NCBI GenBank assembly: GCA_002687015.1
Contig: NYZB01000093.1
Coordinates: 1 to 37,029, forward strand
DNA: 37,029 nucleotides
Direction: 5' to 3'
Source of the DNA: Deltaproteobacteria bacterium
Lineage (GTDB): Bacteria > Myxococcota_A > UBA9160 > UBA6930
Shown piece after piece: positions 18,792-35,601 of the stretch (position 1 is its first letter; each line of letters starts with the position of its first letter). A model generated the notes under the pieces. That model made no database searches. It saw only the letters and a list, made by a program, of their open reading frames with translations, and was not told the origin of the DNA. A program made the position numbers and the translations under genes.

Positions 18792-20003
18792 ATGCGATTC
18801 GGGGTCTTCTACGAGCTCCAGCTGCCGAAACCGTGGGACGATCGATCGGAGCTCCGGATGATCCAGGAGGCCATCGAGCAGGTCGAGATCGCCGATCGGA
18901 TCGGGATCGACTACGCGTGGGCGGTGGAGCACCACTTCCTGGAGGAGTACTCGCACTGCTCGGCCTCCGAGGTGTTCCTGAGCGCCCTGGCGGCCAAGAC
19001 CGAGCGGATCCGCGTGGCCTTCGGCATCCGCCAGGTGATCCCCTACTACAACCACCCGTCCCGTACGGCCGAGGCCGTGGCCATGCTCGACCTGATCTCG
19101 GGGGGTCGCGTCGACTTCGGGATCGGAGAGGGCGCCACCCGTCTCGAGCTGCACGGCTACGGGGTGCCGACGAAGCGCAAGCAGATCCTGTCCTTCGAGG
19201 CCGCCGAGCAGATTGCCAACATGATGGTCATGGAGCCGTACCCCGGCTACGAGGGGGAGGGCTTCTCCATGCCCTGTCGCAACGTGCTCCCGAAGCCCCT
19301 GCAGAAACCCCACCCGCCGATGTGGCTCGCCTGCACGAACCGCAAGACGATCGAGACCGCCGCGCGAAACGGCCTGGGGGCTCTTGCCTTCACCTTCGTC
19401 GATCCCGAGGAGGCCAAGACCTGGGCGGACATCTACTACTCGATCATCCGCTCCGAGGCCTGCGTGCCGCTCGGCCACTCGGTCAACGCCAACATCGCGC
19501 TTGTGACCGGATTCTCCCTGAACGAGGACGCCGAGGTGGGGCGCGCGCGGGGTGCGGATGGCTTCGCGTTCTTCCGCTACGCGATCAATGCCCTCGTCGC
19601 CAACGATCATCGGCCGGGTCGAAGCCGGCTCTGGGACGAGTACGAGGAGCTGCGCGGCCCCGATCTGCCCACCATCCCGTCTCCCGGGATCGGAACACCG
19701 GGAGCCTTCAGCGAGCACATCCGGGAGTTCCAGGAGGTCGGCGTCGACCAGATCATCTTCCTTCAGCAGAGCGGCAAGAACCGCCACGACCACATCTGCG
19801 AGAGCCTCGAGACGTTCGGACGCGAGGTGCTGCCGGAGTTCATGGAGGGGCGCGAGGAGCGGGAGGCGCGCAAGGCTTCGGAGCTGGCACCGCACATCGA
19901 GAAGGCGCTCGCGCGCAAGAGCTGGCTGGCGGAGCTCGGGGACGACGAGATCCCGATCGTGGAGGCGTCCCGGGAGCGCGAGGCCTTCTACCGCAAGGAC
20001 TAG
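18792..20003 (+). CDS. LLM-class flavin-dependent oxidoreductase
   Basis: MRFGVFYELQLPKPWDDRSE...DYAWAVEHHFLEEYSHCSASEVFLSALAAKTERIRVAFGIRQV...AVAMLDLISGGRVDFGIGEG. Confidence 0.92.
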   Translation: MRFGVFYELQLPKPWDDRSELRMIQEAIEQVEIADRIGIDYAWAVEHHFLEEYSHCSASEVFLSALAAKTERIRVAFGIRQVIPYYNHPSRTAEAVAMLDLISGGRVDFGIGEGATRLELHGYGVPTKRKQILSFEAAEQIANMMVMEPYPGYEGEGFSMPCRNVLPKPLQKPHPPMWLACTNRKTIETAARNGLGALAFTFVDPEEAKTWADIYYSIIRSEACVPLGHSVNANIALVTGFSLNEDAEVGRARGADGFAFFRYAINALVANDHRPGRSRLWDEYEELRGPDLPTIPSPGIGTPGAFSEHIREFQEVGVDQIIFLQQSGKNRHDHICESLETFGREVLPEFMEGREEREARKASELAPHIEKALARKSWLAELGDDEIPIVEASREREAFYRKD

Positions 20004-20047
20004 GGCCGGGGCCGGCGTCGATCGCGCCTGGGGCCTTGACCGGGAAA

Positions 20048-20076
20048 CGAATACGAATTAGCGTTCTCAGTATTCG
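20048..20076. promoter_or_regulatory. Inverted repeat CGAATAC-N15-GTATTCG upstream of TetR gene; candidate operator
   Basis: Perfect 7-bp arms at 20048-20054 and 20070-20076, 15 bp before the GTG start. Confidence 0.4.
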
Positions 20077-20090
20077 CCCATGAATACAGC

Positions 20091-20786
20091 GTGATATCCC
20101 ACGTCGTGACCGACCATCCCCACTTCCGGTGGACTCGGCCCGTGCGCCAGGCGCGCAGCCAGGAGACCCTCGAGCGGCTCCTCGACAGTGCGGAATCGCT
20201 GCTCGCCAAGAAGGGCTTCGAGGGCATCACGGTCGCCGAGATCGCGCGCCGAGCCGGCGCCTCCGTGGGCGCCCTCTACTCGCGCTTCCGCGGCAAGGAC
20301 GCGGTGCTGCAATGCCTGCTGGATCGCTTCGTCGCCGAGGCGCGGGCGACCACCTCCGAGACGCTCGATGTCGAGCGCTGGCAGGGCGCCTCGACCGAGG
20401 AGATCGTCACCGAGTTCGTCTCCTTCCTGGTCGAGATCCACCGCACGCGGGTCGGCCTGCTCCGCGAGCTCGTGGCGCGCGCTCACAGCGCCGCGCCGGT
20501 GATCGAGCGCAAGGAAGGGCTGATCCAACACATCGGCGATCGGCTCTCCGCACTGCTCCTCGTGCGCTCGGATGAGATCGCTCATCCCGACCCCGCCTAC
20601 GCCGTGAGCTTCGGTGTGCGGCTCGTCCTCGGCTGCCTCGAGCAGGCGATCCTCTCGAACGACTCGGACACCTACTACGGGCTGCCTGCCTCCGACGAGC
20701 GTCTCGCCGCGGAGCTCACGCGGACCTATCTCAGTTACCTCGGCGTGAAGCGCGGAAGCGATGTCGCCGCTCGACCGATTTCATAG
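20091..20786 (+). CDS. TetR/AcrR family regulator
   Basis: RSQETLERLLDSAESLLAKKGFEGITVAEIARRAGASVGALYSRFRGKDAVLQCL. Confidence 0.92.
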   Translation: MISHVVTDHPHFRWTRPVRQARSQETLERLLDSAESLLAKKGFEGITVAEIARRAGASVGALYSRFRGKDAVLQCLLDRFVAEARATTSETLDVERWQGASTEEIVTEFVSFLVEIHRTRVGLLRELVARAHSAAPVIERKEGLIQHIGDRLSALLLVRSDEIAHPDPAYAVSFGVRLVLGCLEQAILSNDSDTYYGLPASDERLAAELTRTYLSYLGVKRGSDVAARPIS

Positions 20787-20807
20787 GAAGACAGAGGAGA
20801 AAGAAGG

Positions 20808-21245
20808 ATGGCAATCAAGTTCCCCTCCGTGGAGTTCTTTCAGGAGCTGGCGAATCGCATGCAAGGCAATGCCGCAGAGTTCGAGAAGCTGGGCTTCTGC
20901 GACACCGTCATGGCGGTCAAGGTGGACGGAGGCGATCCCCACCTCTACGGCCTGACCTTCTCGTGCTTCGACTGCACCGACGTCCGGGAGCTCGGGGGCG
21001 CCGACGAGCTCGAGCTCGACTTCACCCTGGTGGCACCTCTCGCGCTCTGGCGGGAGATGTTCGAGTCGATCCAGAAGTCGGGCATTCCGGAGCCCGCCTA
21101 CACACTGAACAGCCTCTCCCACGTCGGAGATCGCATGGCGGTCGTCTACGACGATCCCGAGGGGCACGACAAGTTCTACCGCTTCATGGCCACCATCCAG
21201 GCCTTCGTGAACCAGGCCTCCGACCTCGACATCGAGTGGGCCTGA
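20808..21245 (+). CDS. SCP2 sterol-binding-domain-like small protein
   Basis: MAIKFPSVEFFQELANRMQGNAAEFEKLGFCDTVMAVKV...GDRMAVVYDDPEGHDKFYRFMATIQAFVNQASDLDIEWA; SCP2-like layout, tentative. Confidence 0.55.
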   Translation: MAIKFPSVEFFQELANRMQGNAAEFEKLGFCDTVMAVKVDGGDPHLYGLTFSCFDCTDVRELGGADELELDFTLVAPLALWREMFESIQKSGIPEPAYTLNSLSHVGDRMAVVYDDPEGHDKFYRFMATIQAFVNQASDLDIEWA

Positions 21246-21272
21246 GAGCCGCACGAGAGAAGGAGACGAGAG

Positions 21273-22403
21273 ATGAGCTACTACGGATCCACCGACTACT
21301 CGTACAACTCGGATTTCAACCTGCGGGTCCGGGACATGAAGAAGGGAAACCTCGACTTCGGGTGGCTCGACGACGCCCGTGACAAGGTCGAGGTCCGGCG
21401 CCAGGACCCGCGCCGCGGCCTGATGCTGCAAGACATCGAAGTCGGGGACTACGCCATCGAGAACACTCCCGAGGTGGTGCGGGAGAATCGGGGGCTCGCC
21501 CCGCGCGGCGCGATCCTGGCCGAAGGCAGCGACCAGCCGGATCTCGGTCCGACGCTCAACAAGAAGAGCGACGTCTGGGGCTACCGCGTGCAGAGCTACT
21601 GGGAGGAGGCCATGAGCCGCCAGTGGAACGTGACCACCGACGTTCCCTGGCAGGACATGGACAAGTACGAGATCCCCGAGGAGATCGAGTTCGCGTTCTG
21701 CCAGCTCTGCACGCTGCTCTCGGAAGTGGAGATGATCGCCACCGACCTGCCGTCGAAGTGGAGTCATCACATGAACAGCCAGTTCCAGGAGGTGAAGGGC
21801 TTCATCGCCACGCAGTGCATCGACGAGGCGAGGCATGCCGAGGTCTTCCGCAAGCGCGCGCTGGCCAACGGCGTGGGCCTGCTGCGCGCCAGTGTTCGCG
21901 GCGAGCACGCACTGAAGGGGATCCTCGAGGCCGACAGCTACAGCGAAGGGAGTGTCTTCCTGCACGTCCTGGGCGAGGGCTTCATCCTGACCCTCTTCCG
22001 CTCCAGCGAGTTCATCTCGCCCACGCCGGTGGAGCAGCGCATGTTCCAGCTGGTGATGCAGGACGAGGCGCGGCACGTCTCCTACGGCCTGCAGCACCTG
22101 AAGTACCTGATGGACGAGTGCCCCGAAGCCCGGCCGCAGATCAACGGCTTCCTCGACGAGGCCGAGCGGCACCTGACCGGCCTCTTCAATCCCGATCAGC
22201 TCGAATCGATGATCGTGCTCGGGGGCAAGGGCACCAGCCCCGAGTGCATCAAGCGAGGCGTCGAGACGGTGGGGGCCTTCCAGGGCAAGCAGATCCAGGA
22301 GTACTTCCACCGGGCCGAGCGCGCGGGGCTTCCGGAGCGCAGGGAGCGGAGCCCGCTTCTCGAGCTCCAGCAGCGGATGCTCACGGCGATCCAGGCGGTC
22401 TAG
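21273..22403 (+). CDS. Ferritin-like diiron oxygenase-type protein, ligand set intact
   Basis: 376 aa; LCTLLSEVEMIATDLPSKW, CIDEARHAEVFRKRA, LGEGFILTLF, MQDEARHVSYGLQHL: two EX2H (EARH) motifs plus partner glutamates. Confidence 0.8.
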   Translation: MSYYGSTDYSYNSDFNLRVRDMKKGNLDFGWLDDARDKVEVRRQDPRRGLMLQDIEVGDYAIENTPEVVRENRGLAPRGAILAEGSDQPDLGPTLNKKSDVWGYRVQSYWEEAMSRQWNVTTDVPWQDMDKYEIPEEIEFAFCQLCTLLSEVEMIATDLPSKWSHHMNSQFQEVKGFIATQCIDEARHAEVFRKRALANGVGLLRASVRGEHALKGILEADSYSEGSVFLHVLGEGFILTLFRSSEFISPTPVEQRMFQLVMQDEARHVSYGLQHLKYLMDECPEARPQINGFLDEAERHLTGLFNPDQLESMIVLGGKGTSPECIKRGVETVGAFQGKQIQEYFHRAERAGLPERRERSPLLELQQRMLTAIQAV

Positions 22404-22433
22404 GAAGGCGAGAGAGGGAAGAGGAGAGGACGA

Positions 22434-23533
22434 TGGCGTACTACGCACGCGACGACTTTTTCAACAATCCGGAGGTCCTCGAGCGCTCGGTCGAGATCTT
22501 CAAGGGCAAGCTGGACATCGGGTGGAAGAACCTCGACATCGAGAGGGTGAAGTGCCGGCCCAGTGATCCGCGGCGGGGCCTCACCTTCGACGATACGAAC
22601 GTCGGCTCCTACGGCTGGGACCAGATCCCCGAGAAGATCCGACACAACTACTCCATGGCGCCGCGGGGCGCCGTCCAGCCTCCCGGGCTCCCGCACCTGG
22701 GCTACGACATCAACCGCAAGAGCGAGGTGTGGGCCGACAACGCTCCCGCGCTCTACGAGGAGTCCAAGGCCAGGCACTGGATCCCCACCCGGGAGGTTCC
22801 CTGGGATGCGGTGGAGCAGCTCGGCCACTCCGACGAGCTCGAGCGTGGGCTGGCCCAGCTCTGCACGGATCTCACCTGCATGGCCACGGCACTCGGCGAC
22901 ATCCCGTCGAAGTGGGTCTGGCACATCAACCAGGAGCTCCTGGAGCTCAAGATGTTCCAGTGTGCGCAGATGTTCGATGCCGCCCAGCTGGCCGACGTCT
23001 TCCGCAAGCGGGCCATCGCCGGGGGCACGGGCCTGGGGCGCGACCACGCGCCGCTTGGCGAGCTGCTGAAGTGCGTGCTCGACGCGGGGAGCTTCCCCTG
23101 CGCTTCGGCCTCCACCCACATCCTGCTCGCGGGGCTCATGCAGGTCCTGCTTCGGCACATGGGCGCCTGCTCGCCCAACGCGGCCGATGAGACGATCGCG
23201 CGCTTTGGCGTGCAGGATGTCTCGCGCTCGATCGCGTATGGCGTGGAGCACATGCGATCCCTGCTGAAGGAGCGCCCCCACGAGAGCACGGGCCTCCGGG
23301 GGCATCTCGACGAGGTCGAGAACGCCCTGGTCGGGTACCTGGCTTCGCCCATGCTCTTCTCGGCGCTGGCTCTCGTGACGGCAGGGGGTCGCGAGAAGGC
23401 GGCCGAGGCCGTGCCGCAGGTGACCGCCCTCTACCGGAAGTTCGCCGACGAGCATCTGGAGAGACGCGAAGCCGCGGGTATCGGGAGTGAGACGAGCCCG
23501 CTGCAGGCCTTCGTGAGCGAGCTCGAAGCCTGA
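22434..23533 (+). CDS. Paralogue of the preceding diiron protein lacking iron ligands (pseudo-diiron subunit)
   Basis: 366 aa, homologous along its length (DPRRGL, APRGA, SEVW, REVPWD, DIPSKW, VFRKRAIA) but DEARHAEVF is DAAQLADVF and QDEARHVSYG is QDVSRSIAYG. Confidence 0.8.
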
Positions 23534-25000: not shown

Positions 25001-25618
25001 GTGGGACAGGAATCGAGGGGAAGCAGCCGGAGGACACCCGTTCAGCAGCGCTCGCGGGAGACGGTGGAGGTCATCCTGGAGGCCACTGCTCAGGTTCTGG
25101 TGGAGCGCGGCTTCGAGGGCGCGAGCACGAATCGGATCGCCCGGCGCGCGGGTGTGAGCATTGGCTCGCTCTACCAGTACTTCCCGAACAAAGAGGCGTT
25201 GGTCTCCGCCCTGATCGAGCGCCACCTCGCCGAAAGCGTGGCACTGCTTCCGCGCGAACTCAAAGAAACGGCCGACCTGCCGCTTCGGGCGGCGGTTCGC
25301 CTGGCAATCGACTTCGGGATCGCCGCGCATCGGGCGAATCCGGAGCTGCATCAGGTCCTGACGGAACAGATCCCGAGACTCCTCGCCAGGGAGGCCCAGA
25401 CGCAGTGGACGCGGACACTCCACGCCCTCGTCCACGACTACCTGGAAAGACACCGCGCCGAGGTCCGGCCGAGGAACCTGCGAATCGCCGCCTTCCTGCT
25501 GGCTCAGGCGGTCGAGGCGGCGACCCACGGAGCCGTCGTCCACTATCCGGAGTACCTCGTCGGAGACGAGCTGGCCGACGAGCTGGTCGAGCTCGCGCTT
25601 CGCTACCTCGAGGAGTAG
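25001..25618 (+). CDS. TetR/AcrR family regulator
   Basis: GTG start; QQRSRETVEVILEATAQVLVERGFEGASTNRIARRAGVSIGSLYQYFPNKEALV. Confidence 0.93.
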   Translation: MGQESRGSSRRTPVQQRSRETVEVILEATAQVLVERGFEGASTNRIARRAGVSIGSLYQYFPNKEALVSALIERHLAESVALLPRELKETADLPLRAAVRLAIDFGIAAHRANPELHQVLTEQIPRLLAREAQTQWTRTLHALVHDYLERHRAEVRPRNLRIAAFLLAQAVEAATHGAVVHYPEYLVGDELADELVELALRYLEE

Positions 25619-25804
25619 GGCCGAATTGGGGCACCGGAGCGCCCCAGCGGTGCGTCGCCGTGCCCTTGGTCGGCTCTTCCCCCCGGCGCGTGCTCCGTGC
25701 TACGATACAAAACAAGCGTTTCGGAAACCGTCTCGCCCAGGAAACGTCCCGGCTGGATGATCCGAAGATCGGCTGATCCGGCAAGACGATTCGCCGAGCC
25801 CCCC

Positions 25805-26461
25805 ATGCCCAAGATCGTCGATCGCGATGTCCAGCGCGAAGAGGTGCTGCTGGCGACGTGGCGCAGGATCGCCCGCCATGGCGCGGCCGGCGTCACCATC
25901 CGGGGGATTGCGGAAGAGGCCGGCGTCTCGACGGGCTTCATCACGCACTACTTCCGGGACAAGGACGAGGTGCTGGCTGCCGCGCTCCAGCTCTGCAACG
26001 AGCGCGTCTCGGAGCGTGTGGCTGCCCGCGGGCAGGGGCTCGCGGGCATGGCCGCTTTGCGCGCACTGATCGATGCGGTCTTGCCCCTCGACGAGGAGCG
26101 CTTTCTCACCTGGCAGATCTGGCTCAGCTTCTGGGGCCGGTCCGGAGTCGGCGAGCCGCTGCGCCGCGAACAGCGCCGCGGTCGCGAGTCGTGGCGCGGG
26201 GCCCTGCACCGCGTGCTCGGCGAGGCCCACCGTGCGGGTGAGATCCGTCCCGACCTCGACCCATCCTACGAGGCCGAGCGGCTCATCGTGCTGGTCGGCG
26301 GCATCGGCCTGCAGAGCCAGATGCAGCGCCCGCGCTCGTTCCGGCGCAGAGCCTGGTCCTACGTCGAAGCCCACCTCGACGGCCTGATGGGCCCGGCGCC
26401 CCGCTCGGGGGCGGCTCTCCCTGCGGACTCGGATACCACCGTGACAGGAGGATCACCATGA
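25805..26461 (+). CDS. TetR/BetI-like regulator
   Basis: MPKIVDRDVQREEVLLATWRRIARHGAAGVTIRGIAEEAGVSTGFITHYFRDKDEVLAAAL; stop overlaps next start (ATGA). Confidence 0.9.
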   Translation: MPKIVDRDVQREEVLLATWRRIARHGAAGVTIRGIAEEAGVSTGFITHYFRDKDEVLAAALQLCNERVSERVAARGQGLAGMAALRALIDAVLPLDEERFLTWQIWLSFWGRSGVGEPLRREQRRGRESWRGALHRVLGEAHRAGEIRPDLDPSYEAERLIVLVGGIGLQSQMQRPRSFRRRAWSYVEAHLDGLMGPAPRSGAALPADSDTTVTGGSP

Positions 26462-27402
26462 AGCGCGAGTTCCCTTTCCCCGCCTACCCGAACGGCTGGT
26501 TCGCGATCGCCTACGGCGATGAGGTCGCGGTCGGCAGCGTCAGCCCGGTGGAGTACTTCGGCCGGGAGCTCGTCGTCTTCCGGGGCGAGGACGGCGGCGT
26601 GAGGGTGCTCGATGCGCATTGTCCCCACCTGGGAGCCCATCTGGGCTACGGGGGAAGGGTGGTGGAGGACTCCGTGCGCTGTCCCTTCCACGCCTGGCGC
26701 TTCGGCGACGGAGGCAACTGCGTGGAGATCCCCTACGCGAAGCGCATTCCCAAGAAGGCGAAGGTTCGCGCCTGGGAGGTTTGCGAGCAGAACGGCCTGA
26801 TCTTCATCTGGCACCACGCCGAAGGCCTCGCACCCGAGAAGAGCATCCCCGTCATCGAGGAGTACGGCCCCGAGGGCCGGGGCGACTACGTACGCGCGCG
26901 CTGGGTGGTCAAGAGCCGGATGTACGACATGGGCGAGAACCCGGTCGATGCCCAGCACTTCAAGTACCTGCACGGAGGCGTCGCGCCGGATTTCCGGCAG
27001 GTCGGGGATGGCCGGGGAGGGATCCGCAACGAGGCGGATCTCGGCATGCCGACTCCGCGTGGGGACGTCAGAGGGTCGATCACGAGCGAATCCTACGGGC
27101 CGGGCTTTGGCATCGTGCACGTCCGAGGAGTGCGCCACACGATCATCGTGATGGCCAATACCCCGACCGATGAGGAGCACGTCGAAGTCCGGTTCGGGTA
27201 CCTGCAACCTCCCACCGACGACCCGAAGCTCCAGCGCCTGGGTGATGCGATGATCGAGGAGCTCAAGCGGCAGCTGGAGGCGGATATCCCGATCTGGGAG
27301 CACAAGCAGTACCTGACCGAACCGCTGCTCCTGCCCGAAGACGGTCCCATCGCCGAATATCGGAGGAAGGCGAGGAGACACTACACGGGCGAGTTCTTCT
27401 GA
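26458..27402 (+). CDS. Rieske [2Fe-2S] non-haem iron oxygenase, catalytic subunit
   Basis: CPHLGAHLGYGG...VRCPFHAW (CXH..CX2H) and catalytic GENPVDAQHFKYLHG. Confidence 0.92.
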   Translation: MKREFPFPAYPNGWFAIAYGDEVAVGSVSPVEYFGRELVVFRGEDGGVRVLDAHCPHLGAHLGYGGRVVEDSVRCPFHAWRFGDGGNCVEIPYAKRIPKKAKVRAWEVCEQNGLIFIWHHAEGLAPEKSIPVIEEYGPEGRGDYVRARWVVKSRMYDMGENPVDAQHFKYLHGGVAPDFRQVGDGRGGIRNEADLGMPTPRGDVRGSITSESYGPGFGIVHVRGVRHTIIVMANTPTDEEHVEVRFGYLQPPTDDPKLQRLGDAMIEELKRQLEADIPIWEHKQYLTEPLLLPEDGPIAEYRRKARRHYTGEFF

Positions 27403-27448
27403 TGACGCAGGGTCTGGGCATTTCGCAGGGCCCGCGGAGGACGGAACG

Positions 27449-28633
27449 ATGATCGAGATCGACTTTCCGATATTCGACGCAGACAACCACTACTACGAGA
27501 CGCGGGACTGCTTCACGCGCTACATCGAGCCGAAGTACCGCGACAAGGCGGTGCACGTGGTCCAGGATGCCAACGGCCAGGATCGGGTCATGGTGGGGGA
27601 CAAGCCCTTCAAGTTCCTCACCGGGCTCTTCTTCGAAGAGGTCGTCAAGCCCGGCAAGCTCCGCGAGATGCTGCGCGGTATGGGCAAGTCGAACCAAAGG
27701 AGCGAAGGGACGGTGGAGCCCGTACAGCGCGAGTACGTGAACCGCGACGCGCGGCTCGCGATGATGGACAAGCAGGGTGTCCAGGCCTGCTTCATGTTTC
27801 CGACCCTCGCCGTGTGCCTCGAGGAGGACATGAAGGACGACCCCGAGCAGCTCTACGCGAACGTCCACTCCTTCAACCGCTGGGTCGACGAGGAGTGGAA
27901 CTTCAACTGCCGGGATCGGATCTACGCGCCGCCGGTGCTGTCACTCCGCGATCTCGACAGCGCAGTACAGGAGCTCGAGTGGGTCTTGGCACGCGGCGCG
28001 CGGGTCATCGCGCTCCGGCCAGGCCCGGCCTACGGCCGGTCGCCGGCGGATCCCTACTTCGATCCCTTCTGGGCCCTTGCCAACGAGGCGGGCGTGACGG
28101 TCCTCTACCACATCGGCGAGTCCGGCTACAACGCCATGATGAGCGTCCACTGGGGAGAGAAGGCATACCCGACTTCCCACCGTCAGTCGGCCTTCCAGTG
28201 GACCAACTTCTATGGGGACCGGCCGATCATGGACACGATCTCGGCCCTGATCTTCCACAACCTCTTCGGGCGATTCCCGAAGCTGCGCATCGCCAGTGTG
28301 GAGAACGGTGGGTACTGGGCGCCGTACCTCGTGAAGGCCATGGACAAGATGGGCGGCATGGGGCGCAACGGCCCCTGGATCGGTGGGCGCATCACCGAGA
28401 AACCGAGCGCGATCTTTCGTCGGCACGTCTTCGTGATGCCGCATCACGAAGAGGACTTCGCCGGGCTGGCTCGGGAGATCGGCGCCTCGCAGGTGCTCTT
28501 CGGCTCCGATTTCCCGCACGCCGAGGGCATGGCGGAGCCGCGCCAGTTCGTGGACTCGATTGCAGAGCTGCCTCGGGACGAGATCCGCATGATCATGGGA
28601 GAGAATGCGAGAGGGCTCGTAGCCGAGGCCTGA
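27449..28633 (+). CDS. Amidohydrolase family (amidohydrolase_2/ACMSD-like) #1
   Basis: IFDADNHYYE, LYHIGESGYNAMM, HNLFGRFPKLRIASVENGGYW, LFGSDFPHAEGMAEP. Confidence 0.9.
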   Translation: MIEIDFPIFDADNHYYETRDCFTRYIEPKYRDKAVHVVQDANGQDRVMVGDKPFKFLTGLFFEEVVKPGKLREMLRGMGKSNQRSEGTVEPVQREYVNRDARLAMMDKQGVQACFMFPTLAVCLEEDMKDDPEQLYANVHSFNRWVDEEWNFNCRDRIYAPPVLSLRDLDSAVQELEWVLARGARVIALRPGPAYGRSPADPYFDPFWALANEAGVTVLYHIGESGYNAMMSVHWGEKAYPTSHRQSAFQWTNFYGDRPIMDTISALIFHNLFGRFPKLRIASVENGGYWAPYLVKAMDKMGGMGRNGPWIGGRITEKPSAIFRRHVFVMPHHEEDFAGLAREIGASQVLFGSDFPHAEGMAEPRQFVDSIAELPRDEIRMIMGENARGLVAEA

Positions 28634-28666
28634 GGCAAGACCCCACTGGGGAGAGGAGGCGAGACC

Positions 28667-29752
28667 ATGGTTCGGGAACGCATCATTTCAGCGGACTCCC
28701 ACGTGACGATTCGCGACGAGGCCGTGCTCGAGCATCTTGCGAGGAAGTACCACGGCGCCTACCAGGAGGCCCGCACGGCCCATCTGATGCGCATGGCAAA
28801 GCGCGCCAGGCGAGACGAATCCGACGAAGGGCTCCCGATCGCTCAAGCGGAGCGGCCCTGGGAGGCCGCGGGCCGCCCCGGCGAGCACGACTCCGCCGAG
28901 CGGCTGAAGGACATGGACATCGACGGAATCGAAGCCGAGCTCCTCTACTCCGACATCGAGGCCGGCAGCGCCTTCAACGGCCTCGAGGAGGGGGGACGGC
29001 TGGCCGCGTTTCGCGCCTTCAACGATGCTGCTCTCGGCTTCGCCGCTGCCGATCCGAAGCGGCTCCTGATCGTGTACCTGATCCCGATCGTCGATATCGA
29101 CGAAGCGGTTGGCGAGGTGGAGCGGCTCGCAGGGGAGGGCGCCCGCGCTCTCATGCTGCCGGCCTATCCAGGAGCGGTGGGCTTGCCGCCGTACTTCGAT
29201 GCGCGTTACGACCGCCTCTGGGCCGCGATCGAAGAGACGGGCATCCCGATCAGCCAACACGTCGGAGCCAATGAGGCGCTGTGGCAGATCTACGGCTACG
29301 ACTCCACGCAGGCCAAGGGCGTCTTCCAGTCGTTGCCCCCGATCTTCATGGCCGAGATCCTGGCCAACTGGATCGTCGGTGGTGTCTTCGAGCGCTTCCC
29401 GAAGCTGCGCGTCGTTCTCGTGGAGTCCGGGCTGGGTTGGATCCCATATTTCATCGAGCGGCTCGACACGATGCAGCGTCGCCACGGCTGGGACCACTAC
29501 GAGATGATCCGCGAGGCTCCGAGCCACTACTGGCAGCGCAACATGATGGCGACCTTCGAGGAGGACACCTACGGGATCAGTCAGCGCCATCGCCTGGGAA
29601 TCGACAACCTGATGTGGGCGACCGACTACCCCCATCCGGACTGTACCTGGCCCGAATCGCAGAAGGTCCTCGAGACGCATTTCGAGGGAGTCCCCTCGGA
29701 AGAGGCGCGTCAGATCATCGGAGGCAACGCGGCGCGCATCTATCGCCTCTGA
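28667..29752 (+). CDS. Amidohydrolase family (amidohydrolase_2/ACMSD-like) #2
   Basis: ISADSHVTIRDE, PISQHVGANE, GGVFERFPKLRVVLVESGLGWIPYFIERLD, MWATDYPHPDCTWP. Confidence 0.92.
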   Translation: MVRERIISADSHVTIRDEAVLEHLARKYHGAYQEARTAHLMRMAKRARRDESDEGLPIAQAERPWEAAGRPGEHDSAERLKDMDIDGIEAELLYSDIEAGSAFNGLEEGGRLAAFRAFNDAALGFAAADPKRLLIVYLIPIVDIDEAVGEVERLAGEGARALMLPAYPGAVGLPPYFDARYDRLWAAIEETGIPISQHVGANEALWQIYGYDSTQAKGVFQSLPPIFMAEILANWIVGGVFERFPKLRVVLVESGLGWIPYFIERLDTMQRRHGWDHYEMIREAPSHYWQRNMMATFEEDTYGISQRHRLGIDNLMWATDYPHPDCTWPESQKVLETHFEGVPSEEARQIIGGNAARIYRL

Positions 29753-31824: not shown

Positions 31825-32631
31825 TCAGCGGGCTCGGGTTCGGCGGCGGTTCTTGGTCTTCGGCTTTTCGGAGGCCGGGGTCTGCGAAGCGCCAGGGCGC
31901 TGCTGCCTGCGGTAGCTCTCGCCCTCGATGACGACCTGGTAGGCGTTGTGGGCGAGCCGGTCGAGAGCGCTCTGAGCGAGGATGGGGTCGTCGAAGAGGG
32001 GGATCCACTCCTCGATGACGCGGTTGCTGGTGACGATGGTCGAGCCGCGGCGGTGGCGTTCGAGGATGACTTCGTAGAGATCGCTCGATTGCTCGGGGGA
32101 GAGGCGTCGGAGACCAAAGTCGTCGAGGATGAGGAGGTCGGGGGCGAGAAGCCTGCGGAGGATTTTCTCGGTCGAGAGGTCGGCTCGGGACTGGTGAAAC
32201 CAGTGGAACATGCGGTCGGCGCGGAGGAAGAGGACGTTGTGGCCGGCTCGGCAGGCCGCATGGCCGAGAGCGGAGGCCAGGAAAGTCTTGCCCACGCCGA
32301 CGGGGCCGAGCAGGATCACGTCCTCGTGGCGATCGAGGAAGCCGAGCGAGAAGAGGTCGCGCACGCAATCGCGATCGAAGGTGACCGGTGCGTCCCAGTT
32401 GAAGGCTTCCAACGTCTGCTCTTCCTCGAAGCCAGCGCGGGAGAGGCGCGTCTCGAGGCTCTTGTGGTCCCGGCGATCGACCTCGTCCTGGAGGACGAGT
32501 TCGAGGAAGTCGAGCTCAGGAAGCTTCGTCTTCCGGGTGTACGCCACGCGATCGGGGAGCGTGGCGAGCATTCCCGAGAGCTTCAGGCGCTTGAGCAGGG
32601 TCTTGAGGGAGGGGCTGATCTCGGTCGTCAT
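31825..32631 (-). CDS. istB: IS21-family helper ATPase IstB
   Basis: VILLGPVGVGKTFLASALGHAACRAGHNVLFLRADRMF...LLILDDFGLRRLSPEQSSDLYEVILERHRRGSTIVTSNRVIEEWIPLFDDPILAQSALDRLAHNAYQVVIEGESYRR. Confidence 0.95.
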   Translation of the reverse strand: MTTEISPSLKTLLKRLKLSGMLATLPDRVAYTRKTKLPELDFLELVLQDEVDRRDHKSLETRLSRAGFEEEQTLEAFNWDAPVTFDRDCVRDLFSLGFLDRHEDVILLGPVGVGKTFLASALGHAACRAGHNVLFLRADRMFHWFHQSRADLSTEKILRRLLAPDLLILDDFGLRRLSPEQSSDLYEVILERHRRGSTIVTSNRVIEEWIPLFDDPILAQSALDRLAHNAYQVVIEGESYRRQQRPGASQTPASEKPKTKNRRRTRAR

Positions 32632-32823
32632 CGGTCGGGGTCTCCTTCTTGGGGTTCTCGTTCGGGTGGGTGAAGTGCCCTTGCGGGCGTAGAAAGCGGG
32701 GCGGGAGCAGCAGGAGCTGTCCCGGTGTCGGCGGACGTGATATTCGGGACCTAAGAGGACACGAAGTTTTCCGCACCTCCTACTGAGCGATGGCGTGCAT
32801 TCTCCCCGGAGGGAGATCGATGC

Positions 32824-33920
32824 ATGGCCAGGCGACTGAGACAGGAGGAAGTGATGACGATCGAGGTCTTGCATGAGAAGGGTTGCTCGAACCGGGAGAT
32901 CGCCCGCAAGCTGGGGATCGATGAGAAGGCCGTGCGCTACCGGCTGAAGCGGCTGGCGGAGAGCGCGGAGGACGGTCGAAGCGGGAAGGCCTTTCGGGCG
33001 GAGGGTCTTCACCGGGTGATCGAGCACTGGCTCGAGGTCGAGAGCCCGCGTGGCGCGAACCTGCAGGCACTCTACGAGTTTCTGGTGGGGGAGCACGGCT
33101 ACGAGGGCTCGTACAAGTCTGTGCAGCGTTACGTGCGGGCGCGTTTCGCGAAGCCGAAGCTCCGGACGCGTCGCCGGGTAGAGACGCCTCCCGGCGCGCA
33201 GTCGCAGACGGACTGGGGCGAGTTCCGGGGCGTGCGGGTCGGGGGCGAGGCGATCGACCTGCATGCCTTCCACCTGGTGCTCTCGTACTCGCGCCAGGAG
33301 GCCATCGTGTGGTCGGAGCGGGCCGACACGCTGGCGTGGCTCGACGTGCACAACCGGGCGTTCGAGCGCCTGGGAGGCGTGGCCGCCTGCAACCGCGTGG
33401 ACAACGTAAAGACGGCCATCAGCAAGGGCGCGGGCCCGTGGGGAACGGTGAACCCGGCCTACCGTGCGTACGCGAAGACCCTCCGCTTCCACGTGGACGC
33501 CGCACGACCCCGACAGCCCCAGGAGAAGGGCAAGGTCGAGCGCCGAATCCTGGGCCACCGGACGAGCTTCGATCCGCGACGGGAGGCGTGGTCGAGTCTC
33601 GGCGAGCTCCAGGGCTGGACGGACGAGCAGGTCGAGCGGTCGAGCCGCCGCCGTAGGTGTCCGGTGACGGGCACGTCGGTGAAGGAGGCCTGGGAGGAGG
33701 AGAGGCCTTGGCTTGGAAGGCTCCCCGATCTCCTGCCGGAGCCCTTCGATCTCGTGCGGCAGCGGTGGGTAGGTCGCGACGCCACGATGCACTTCGAGGG
33801 CCGGGCCTACAGCGTGCCTTTCACGCTGGCCGGTCGATTCGTGGAGGTGCGCGGATGTGCACGCACGGTGCAGGTTTGGAGCGAGGGCAAGCGTGTGGCC
33901 GAGCACCCACGGGTCGAGCG
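32824..33920 (+). pseudogene. istA: IS21-family transposase IstA, 3'-truncated
   Basis: HTH ...GCSNREIARKLGIDEKAVRYRLKRL; TDWGEF / NRVDNVKTA / KGKVERRI DDE residues; ends abruptly where IS66 tnpC begins on the opposite strand. Confidence 0.9.
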
Positions 33921-34571
33921 TGGAAGCTCGACGCCGATGCGCTTCAGCGCCACCTCCTGGCGGTAGAGCGGCATCCCGTCCACGAACTTCTGGGTGGCCA
34001 CATGGGCGAGGAGCGCCGGCGAGGCGATGCTCTTCGGGATCGGCTGGAGTGGCGCCTTCGCCACCTTCACACCTCGCTTGCAGGTGGGGCACCCGTACTT
34101 GGGCCGGATGTGCCGCACCCGGCGGAGCTTCGCCGGGATGATCTCCAGTTGCTCACTCTCCTCACGCCCGATCTCCACCAGGCGAGAGCCGTCCCGCGCG
34201 CAGACCTTCTCCTCCTCGGGAAGGTCGTGGATCACCTCGATGCAGGGGAGTGATTCGGGAAGAGGCCGCCGGCCCCCTTTCTTGCGCGTGTGCGCGGGAA
34301 CCTGGATCTCGTCTCGTTCCTTCGCCCGAGAGATGGCCTCAGCCACTTCCCGCTCCGCCTCGTTGAAGATCGAGAGCTGATCCGGAGAGACCTTCTCGCT
34401 CTTCTTCCCGAAGCGCTGGTGGCGCAGCAGTCGCACGTACTCGCGAAGCTGGGCAATCTCGGCATCGCGCGCCTCGAGCTCGGCGTTGCGTTCTTCGAGT
34501 TCGTCATTGCGCCGGAGAAGCAAGACGCGAAGCGCTTCGACCGTACTCGGGAGCGGCTCCGCAACGTCCAT
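33912..34571 (-). pseudogene. tnpC: IS66 transposase TnpC, N-terminal part only (no DDE domain)
   Basis: LRHQRFGKKSEKVSPDQLSIFNEAE...CPTCKRGVKVAKAPLQPIPKSIASPALLAHVATQKFVDGMPLYRQEVALKRIGVELPRST. Confidence 0.92.
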
Positions 34572-34603
34572 TGCGATACGGATCTTAGACGCTGCTTCCC
34601 GCG

Positions 34604-34957
34604 CTACAAGGTCGACTCGTAGAAAACCTCCTCGTGAGGACGAAGACGAAAGAAGTCGATGCCGTCGAGCAGCCAGCCGATCTCTCGACGTCCGACGACG
34701 ATCGTCGCCTCACCGTCGTCCGGCCACGGAAAGCGATCTTTCTCGAGCCGCTTCAGCCACAACGCGAAACCGTTGCGGTCCCAGTACAAAAGACGCGCGC
34801 GATCTCGGCGACGGTTCGTGAATGCGTAGACCCGCTTCGCAAAGGGATCCGCCTCCATCTCCTGCTCCACCATCAGCACGAGACCATTGATCTGGCGGCG
34901 AAAGTCGACCGGCTCCCGGTGGAGCCAGACCTCCACCTCCTCGGTGAGCGCCATCAT
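34604..34957 (-). CDS. tnpB: IS66 accessory protein TnpB (IS66 Orf2)
   Basis: VWLHREPVDFRRQINGLVLMVEQEMEADPFAKRVYAFTNRRRDRARLLYWDRNGFALWLKRLEKDRFPWP. Confidence 0.95.
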   Translation of the reverse strand: MMALTEEVEVWLHREPVDFRRQINGLVLMVEQEMEADPFAKRVYAFTNRRRDRARLLYWDRNGFALWLKRLEKDRFPWPDDGEATIVVGRREIGWLLDGIDFFRLRPHEEVFYESTL

Positions 34958-35310
34958 CGAAGCTGGCTCACGGCACCGAGCACACGGGCAAGATCGACTC
35001 CGCACGCGCCTTCCCATTCGACCAACGCCCCGTTCGCCAGCCGCACCCGGTACCGGGCCTTCGGCGCTGCAGCCACCTCGACGCGCGCGAACCCACCTCC
35101 GGACCCCGGCTTCGCCTTCGACCGTCGTTCCGCCGCAGCCTCCAGCGCACCCCTCGCCCGCAGCCGCTTGCGTGCCTGGTAGAGACCCTGGATCGAGATC
35201 CGGTGCCTTCTCGCGTAGGCCTTCGCCGTCAGTCCCGACTTCTCACACGCATCGTGGTGCCGGAGCCAGTAGCGATCCCGCTCCCTCAGCGTTGCCACCC
35301 CCTTCGCCAT
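34954..35310 (-). CDS. tnpA: IS66 accessory protein TnpA
   Basis: WLRHHDACEKSGLTAKAYARRHRISIQGLYQARKRLRARG; overlaps tnpB start. Confidence 0.88.
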   Translation of the reverse strand: MAKGVATLRERDRYWLRHHDACEKSGLTAKAYARRHRISIQGLYQARKRLRARGALEAAAERRSKAKPGSGGGFARVEVAAAPKARYRVRLANGALVEWEGACGVDLARVLGAVSQLR

Positions 35311-35382
35311 GTCCTTCCCCCTTGACGAGGAAGATCGCGAGATGGGCTGCCCGGCGAAACCTGGGGATTACGCACCGCTTAC

Positions 35383-35601
35383 GAAAAAGGCAAGCAAGGC
35401 GGTCTGGAATATGGCGCCGCCCAGGGCGCCGATCCCGCCCGCCACCGCGCCAAGGGCAACGACTCCGACCGCCTGACCCATGGCGTCCTGGTCGTGCTCG
35501 ACCTCTTCGTAGACGCTCGCGTCGAGCATCAATGCGCCGATCAAGCGCTCCTGGAAGCTGCGGCCGCCGCTCGTGGTGGGGACATCGGGATTCTCAGCCA
35601 T
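35383..35601 (-). pseudogene. Yip1-like membrane protein, N-terminal part, interrupted by IS66
   Basis: GRSFQERLIGALMLDASVYEEVEHDQDAMGQAVGVVALGAVAGGIGALG...; reading frame runs into the IS66 end and stops (VSGA*). Confidence 0.7.

Follow-up and report, generated by a model that had tools for sequence, protein, structure and literature searches.

The 37,029-bp window (the whole stretch of DNA analysed here) contains a four-gene unit that we predict, with moderate confidence, to encode a multicomponent diiron oxygenase, in which a catalytic subunit and a paralogue devoid of metal ligands would form a heteromer and an SCP2-like protein would hold the substrate. Its features are as follows.

20036..20060, + strand: promoter/operator-like element, with TTGACC at 20036-20041 and the conserved core GAATACGAATTA at 20049-20060
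20091 (GTG) or 20106 (GTG) to 20786, + strand: TetR-family regulator (Pfam TetR_N 5.3e-14, TetR_C_15 2.8e-6)
20808..21245, + strand: 145-aa protein with a predicted SCP2-like fold (AlphaFold pLDDT 94.5; best Foldseek match SCP2)
21273..22403, + strand: 376-aa catalytic diiron carboxylate protein with six invariant ligands and a predicted R2/R2lox-like fold
22433..23533, + strand: 366-aa pseudo-diiron paralogue without metal ligands, under purifying selection and in a clade of its own (support 100/100)

A preliminary description of this DNA had proposed a co-directional four-gene unit at 20091-23533 with gaps of ~20-30 bp. This is confirmed, as all four genes lie on the + strand with intergenic gaps of 21, 27 and 29 bp, and both the end coordinate of 23533 and the length of 145 aa were exact. 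The paralogue starts at 22433, and the ORF listed from 21623 is the same open frame extended 5′. Three architectures are present among the relatives: type A (TetR, SCP2-like, catalytic, pseudo), which includes the window; type B (SCP2-like, pseudo, catalytic), which lacks TetR; and type C (catalytic, SCP2-like), which lacks the pseudo gene. The same gene order and strand recur in 14 type A loci, 12 of which have the TetR gene, and the four-gene layout thus exceeds chance. The genes flanking type A loci vary between genomes, indicating that the operon stands alone.

Relatives were sought with the diiron alignment in one genome per species, yielding at least 565, and the best 80 loci were read; their gene calls were made with a codon-model script and then checked by profile search. 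The SCP2-like gene adjoins the diiron gene in 76 of these 80, the other four being at contig ends, and this adjacency is not a selection effect, as only the diiron protein had served to find the loci. Conserved gene neighbourhood had been suggested as a check on the unit, and the adjacency is indeed kept across phyla, with loci (from MAGs and genomes) labelled Deltaproteobacteria, Myxococcales, Binatota, Acidimicrobiia, Chloroflexi, Mycobacterium and Gammaproteobacteria. In the reverse search, which ran the SCP2-like profile against 284 genomes from the phylum, the strong matches sit at diiron loci and the solitary matches are divergent and weak. Divergent SCP2-like relatives (about 47-79 bits) either stand apart from any diiron gene or form a second copy (L150-L153, L059:11422-11832), and L177 has an extra pseudo-plus-catalytic copy with no adjacent SCP2-like gene. 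An apparent SCP2-diiron fusion in L078 results from a masked stretch of N and is an artefact, and no relative of the unit was found in the plasmid collection.

The 376-aa protein was correctly described as a catalytic diiron protein, and all six ligands are intact (E153, E185, H188, E235, E265 and H268). These positions read EEHEEH in 107/107 complete catalytic homologues, a count for which catalytic and pseudo proteins were sorted by the ligand site itself; the assignment is clear-cut for every homologue and agrees with the tree. The protein carries DEARH motifs and an R2-type six-ligand site, and its Pfam matches, to R2, DUF455 and AurF, are all sub-threshold. A sequence profile identifies a VlmB homologue as the best PDB match (E 4.4e-5). 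The AlphaFold model is modest (pLDDT 66, pTM 0.68, with the first 72 residues unresolved), and Foldseek places R2lox (the best match), R2 and VlmB at the top. We interpret it from these sequence and model comparisons as a ferritin-like diiron carboxylate protein of the R2 type, which would activate O2 at a carboxylate-bridged dimetal site within a four-helix scaffold, the metal presumably being iron. The position of the R2 radical tyrosine is F192, and it is F in 107/107 homologues, which rules out a tyrosyl-radical R2; Tyr-free R2 classes are still compatible.

The 366-aa protein was likewise correctly assigned as a pseudo-diiron protein, having A, A, L, A, V and S at the six ligand positions (0/6 kept). 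Its clade is supported at 100/100, and the trees trace the paralogue to one duplication, which parted it from the catalytic clade at the root of the three-gene group; close to this split lies the branch of the two-gene locus L069, whose exact placement is unsure. Within the paralogue clade the branching into subclades parallels that of the catalytic tree, a sign of joint inheritance. All six ligands are lost in the paralogues of types A and B, and up to two remain in a third group (L068-L077). The catalytic proteins share 62 positions with conservation of at least 95%; of these the paralogue retains 30 of the 56 non-ligand ones vs none of the six ligands, for which our own arithmetic gives a chance of about 0.015. 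In close pairs its dN/dS is 0.07-0.13, compared with 0.03-0.08 for the catalytic gene, and a value of about 0.1 argues that the paralogue is under purifying selection and functional. Having kept the scaffold and lost the metal site, it most likely substitutes for one half of an ancestral homodimer, which would result in a catalytic/pseudo heteromer. Separate inactivated duplicates are indicated by the tree in Dehalococcoidia (NAHDKH) and in L160 (EYHNCH), each adjoining a catalytic gene and an SCP2-like gene, although the independence of the L160 duplicate is less sure because of its long branch.

The SCP2 assignment of the 145-aa protein had been offered tentatively, and it holds at the level of the predicted fold but not at that of the profile HMM, as the Pfam SCP2 model (PF02036) matches neither the window protein nor four relatives at E<=1. 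As a single sequence the protein has no match in Pfam, NCBIfam or PDB, and its sequence profile finds only the Thermus SCP2 chains 1wfr and 2cx7 in PDB, weakly (E 0.12). The AlphaFold model, built with 26 relatives in the alignment, has a pLDDT of 94.5 and a pTM of 0.89, and the same two structures are its top Foldseek matches (E about 3e-5). Matches of SCP2 fold (1wfr, 2cx7, 6ovp, 6h6n (UbiJ) and 1ikt) range from E 3e-5 to 7e-4 with TM of 0.48-0.65 by query, and those at E <0.001 are all sterol carrier proteins, including the UbiJ SCP2 domain, except for the methyltransferase MycE; MycE and a second methyltransferase, SpnK, are matched via SCP2-like accessory regions. Because the model matches SCP2 while the sequence libraries give nothing, we regard the protein, on its modelled structure, as having an SCP2-like fold in a sequence family not listed in Pfam or NCBIfam. 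Known members of this fold are mostly lipid binders. The protein would be an obligate partner that delivers or holds and presents a hydrophobic substrate (acyl or terpenoid-like). In the ubiquinone metabolon, the SCP2 domain of UbiJ has been proposed to bind intermediates by their hydrophobic tail for the biosynthetic enzymes (PMC9499169), but UbiJ works for an enzyme complex and is longer by a C-terminal region, whereas the window protein stands alone and is paired with one diiron enzyme. A six-frame search found no second SCP2-like gene of the same family elsewhere in the window.

The regulator has a clear TetR_N helix-turn-helix (52.2 bits, above the cut-off of 24). A GAATnCGAA-type core lies 39-111 bp upstream of TetR in 11 of the 12 TetR-bearing type A loci, exactly as GAATNCGAATTA in eight of those 11, and is divergent in the twelfth (L037); it is absent upstream in both type A loci without TetR. 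A TTGAC(A/C) box is positioned just 5′ of the core in several loci, the window included. The exact core GAATACGAATTA occurs once in the 4.88-Mb genome, at the window's operon, and across 15 genomes eight of ten matches to the operator core are at the operon. Matches in G028 and G042 were set aside as chance occurrences, as they are located within long ORFs. A conserved motif upstream of TetR that is unique in the genome supports a single autoregulated operon, which is self-contained and probably self-regulated; TetR would bind this motif and repress the promoter until the substrate or product binds.

The preliminary description had noted the lack of a nearby reductase, and this is correct locally, but relatives do carry a dedicated ferredoxin. 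A dedicated 2[4Fe-4S] ferredoxin gene follows the type C genes in Mycobacterium, some Chloroflexi and the majority of actinobacterial loci, often with the gene of a 71-aa zinc-ribbon-like protein in between. One ferredoxin-bearing type C locus is in the window's order (L042, in G004) and another in its class (L156, in G151), and L160 unites ferredoxin, catalytic, pseudo and SCP2-like genes. Among the trios of the window's clade, none has a linked ferredoxin; a six-frame search found no ferredoxin of the relatives' family elsewhere in the window, and the window's genome has only generic ferredoxin matches (best 37 bits). As relatives lacking the paralogue often carry a dedicated ferredoxin directly downstream, electrons for the window's operon are probably supplied by a ferredoxin acting in trans. 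The suggestion that the upstream LLM flavoprotein (18792-20003) is the partner finds no support, and we reject it as an operon member, since LLM genes are no commoner near the unit (3/520) than farther off (4/693). In four Mycobacterium loci (L131, L134, L135 from Mycobacterium nebraskense, and L136) the diiron, SCP2-like and ferredoxin genes are followed by a canonical PF02036 SCP2 gene, giving two SCP2-fold proteins per cluster.

MmoB belongs to methane monooxygenase and PaaB to phenylacetyl-CoA epoxidase, and the SCP2-like protein could be a coupling or effector subunit, or a structural one, as these are, rather than a carrier, in which case the substrate may be small. Its obligate adjacency suits an effector as well as a carrier, and the SCP2-like regions of MycE and SpnK among the fold matches are accessory ones. 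We nevertheless consider this reading rather unlikely, given the lipid-binding habit of most proteins with this fold and the gain of a second, canonical SCP2 gene in the Mycobacterium clusters.

A more doubtful reading still would make the diiron protein an R2lox-type ligand-binding oxidase, for which a dedicated reductase would be unnecessary. The best structural matches are R2lox, and the two share a four-helix dimetal carboxylate site with E/ExxH/E/ExxH ligands, as does class I RNR R2; R2lox also holds a long-chain fatty acid and has a V72-Y162 ether cross-link (PMC6060897). However, the NCBIfam R2lox model (NF006200) scores 27.8 bits, far below its cut-off of 194, and the cross-link positions, mapped by ligand offset, correspond to A156 (A in 107/107) and M/L/I230, so that by this residue comparison the protein is not an R2lox. 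The linked ferredoxins of relatives also argue against it, and neither R2lox nor R2 resembles the window's protein in being genetically tied to an SCP2-like protein. A ferritin-like module for metal or redox sensing, or for storage, with no oxygenase activity, is the least probable. The superfamily fold agrees with it, but the six-ligand R2-type site with DEARH motifs does not, the nearest folds are O2-activating enzymes, and ferredoxin and SCP2-like partners are ill-suited to storage.

The predicted diiron oxygenase has counterparts of similar composition. In the multicomponent diiron oxygenases soluble methane monooxygenase (alpha/beta) and PaaA/PaaC one paralogous subunit is inactive, and they too combine a catalytic subunit, a metal-less paralogue and a small protein. 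The window's diiron proteins, however, have no Pfam match to those families, the small subunit is SCP2-like, a reductase gene is absent, and the paralogue arose within its own diiron family. The VlmB/AurF-type N-oxygenases belong to the same fold family, but the AurF score (PF11583) is 13.2 bits vs a gathering cut-off of 29.6, and the partner genes differ.

We tentatively suggest that these loci represent a widespread, undescribed class of diiron oxygenases with substrate hand-over by a dedicated SCP2-like subunit, in which a dead copy of the enzyme may have been recruited as a partner subunit at least three times (the Deltaproteobacteria/Myxococcota trio clade, Dehalococcoidia and L160). Partial coverage of the literature found no paper tying SCP2 to a diiron protein in such a unit. 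The proposal provides a function hypothesis for two large protein families unnamed by Pfam and NCBIfam, in lineages whose oxidative chemistry is poorly mapped (Acidimicrobiia, Chloroflexi, Mycobacterium and Myxococcota-like bacteria). Repeated recruitment of a metal-less copy also offers a natural experiment on why diiron enzymes gain inactive subunits, as two-gene and three-gene forms are directly comparable, and the fold, partner and candidate ferredoxin guide the choice of a co-expression set.

Elsewhere the window encodes two P450s, a KshA-type Rieske protein, a TauD protein, an enoyl-CoA hydratase and an AMP-binding enzyme, which fits a lipid/terpenoid lifestyle without a link to the operon. 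A separate catabolic cluster at 25001-29752 contains TetR genes, a KshA-type Rieske protein and amidohydrolase-like proteins, and short ORFs at 31825-35601 resemble insertion-sequence genes by eye. A distant sister family in Myxococcota (L172-L176) has a diiron protein that is extended at the N terminus (about 376-403 aa); its gene adjoins that of a 280-aa protein starting with a GAVAYDPKV motif and often also a 373-aa protein that is acyl-CoA dehydrogenase-like by eye, and the SCP2-like gene is absent (six-frame check of L172-L175). The trio at locus L072, from a MAG record titled Klebsiella pneumoniae, is of deltaproteobacterial type and almost identical to the one in L074; the record is probably mislabelled.
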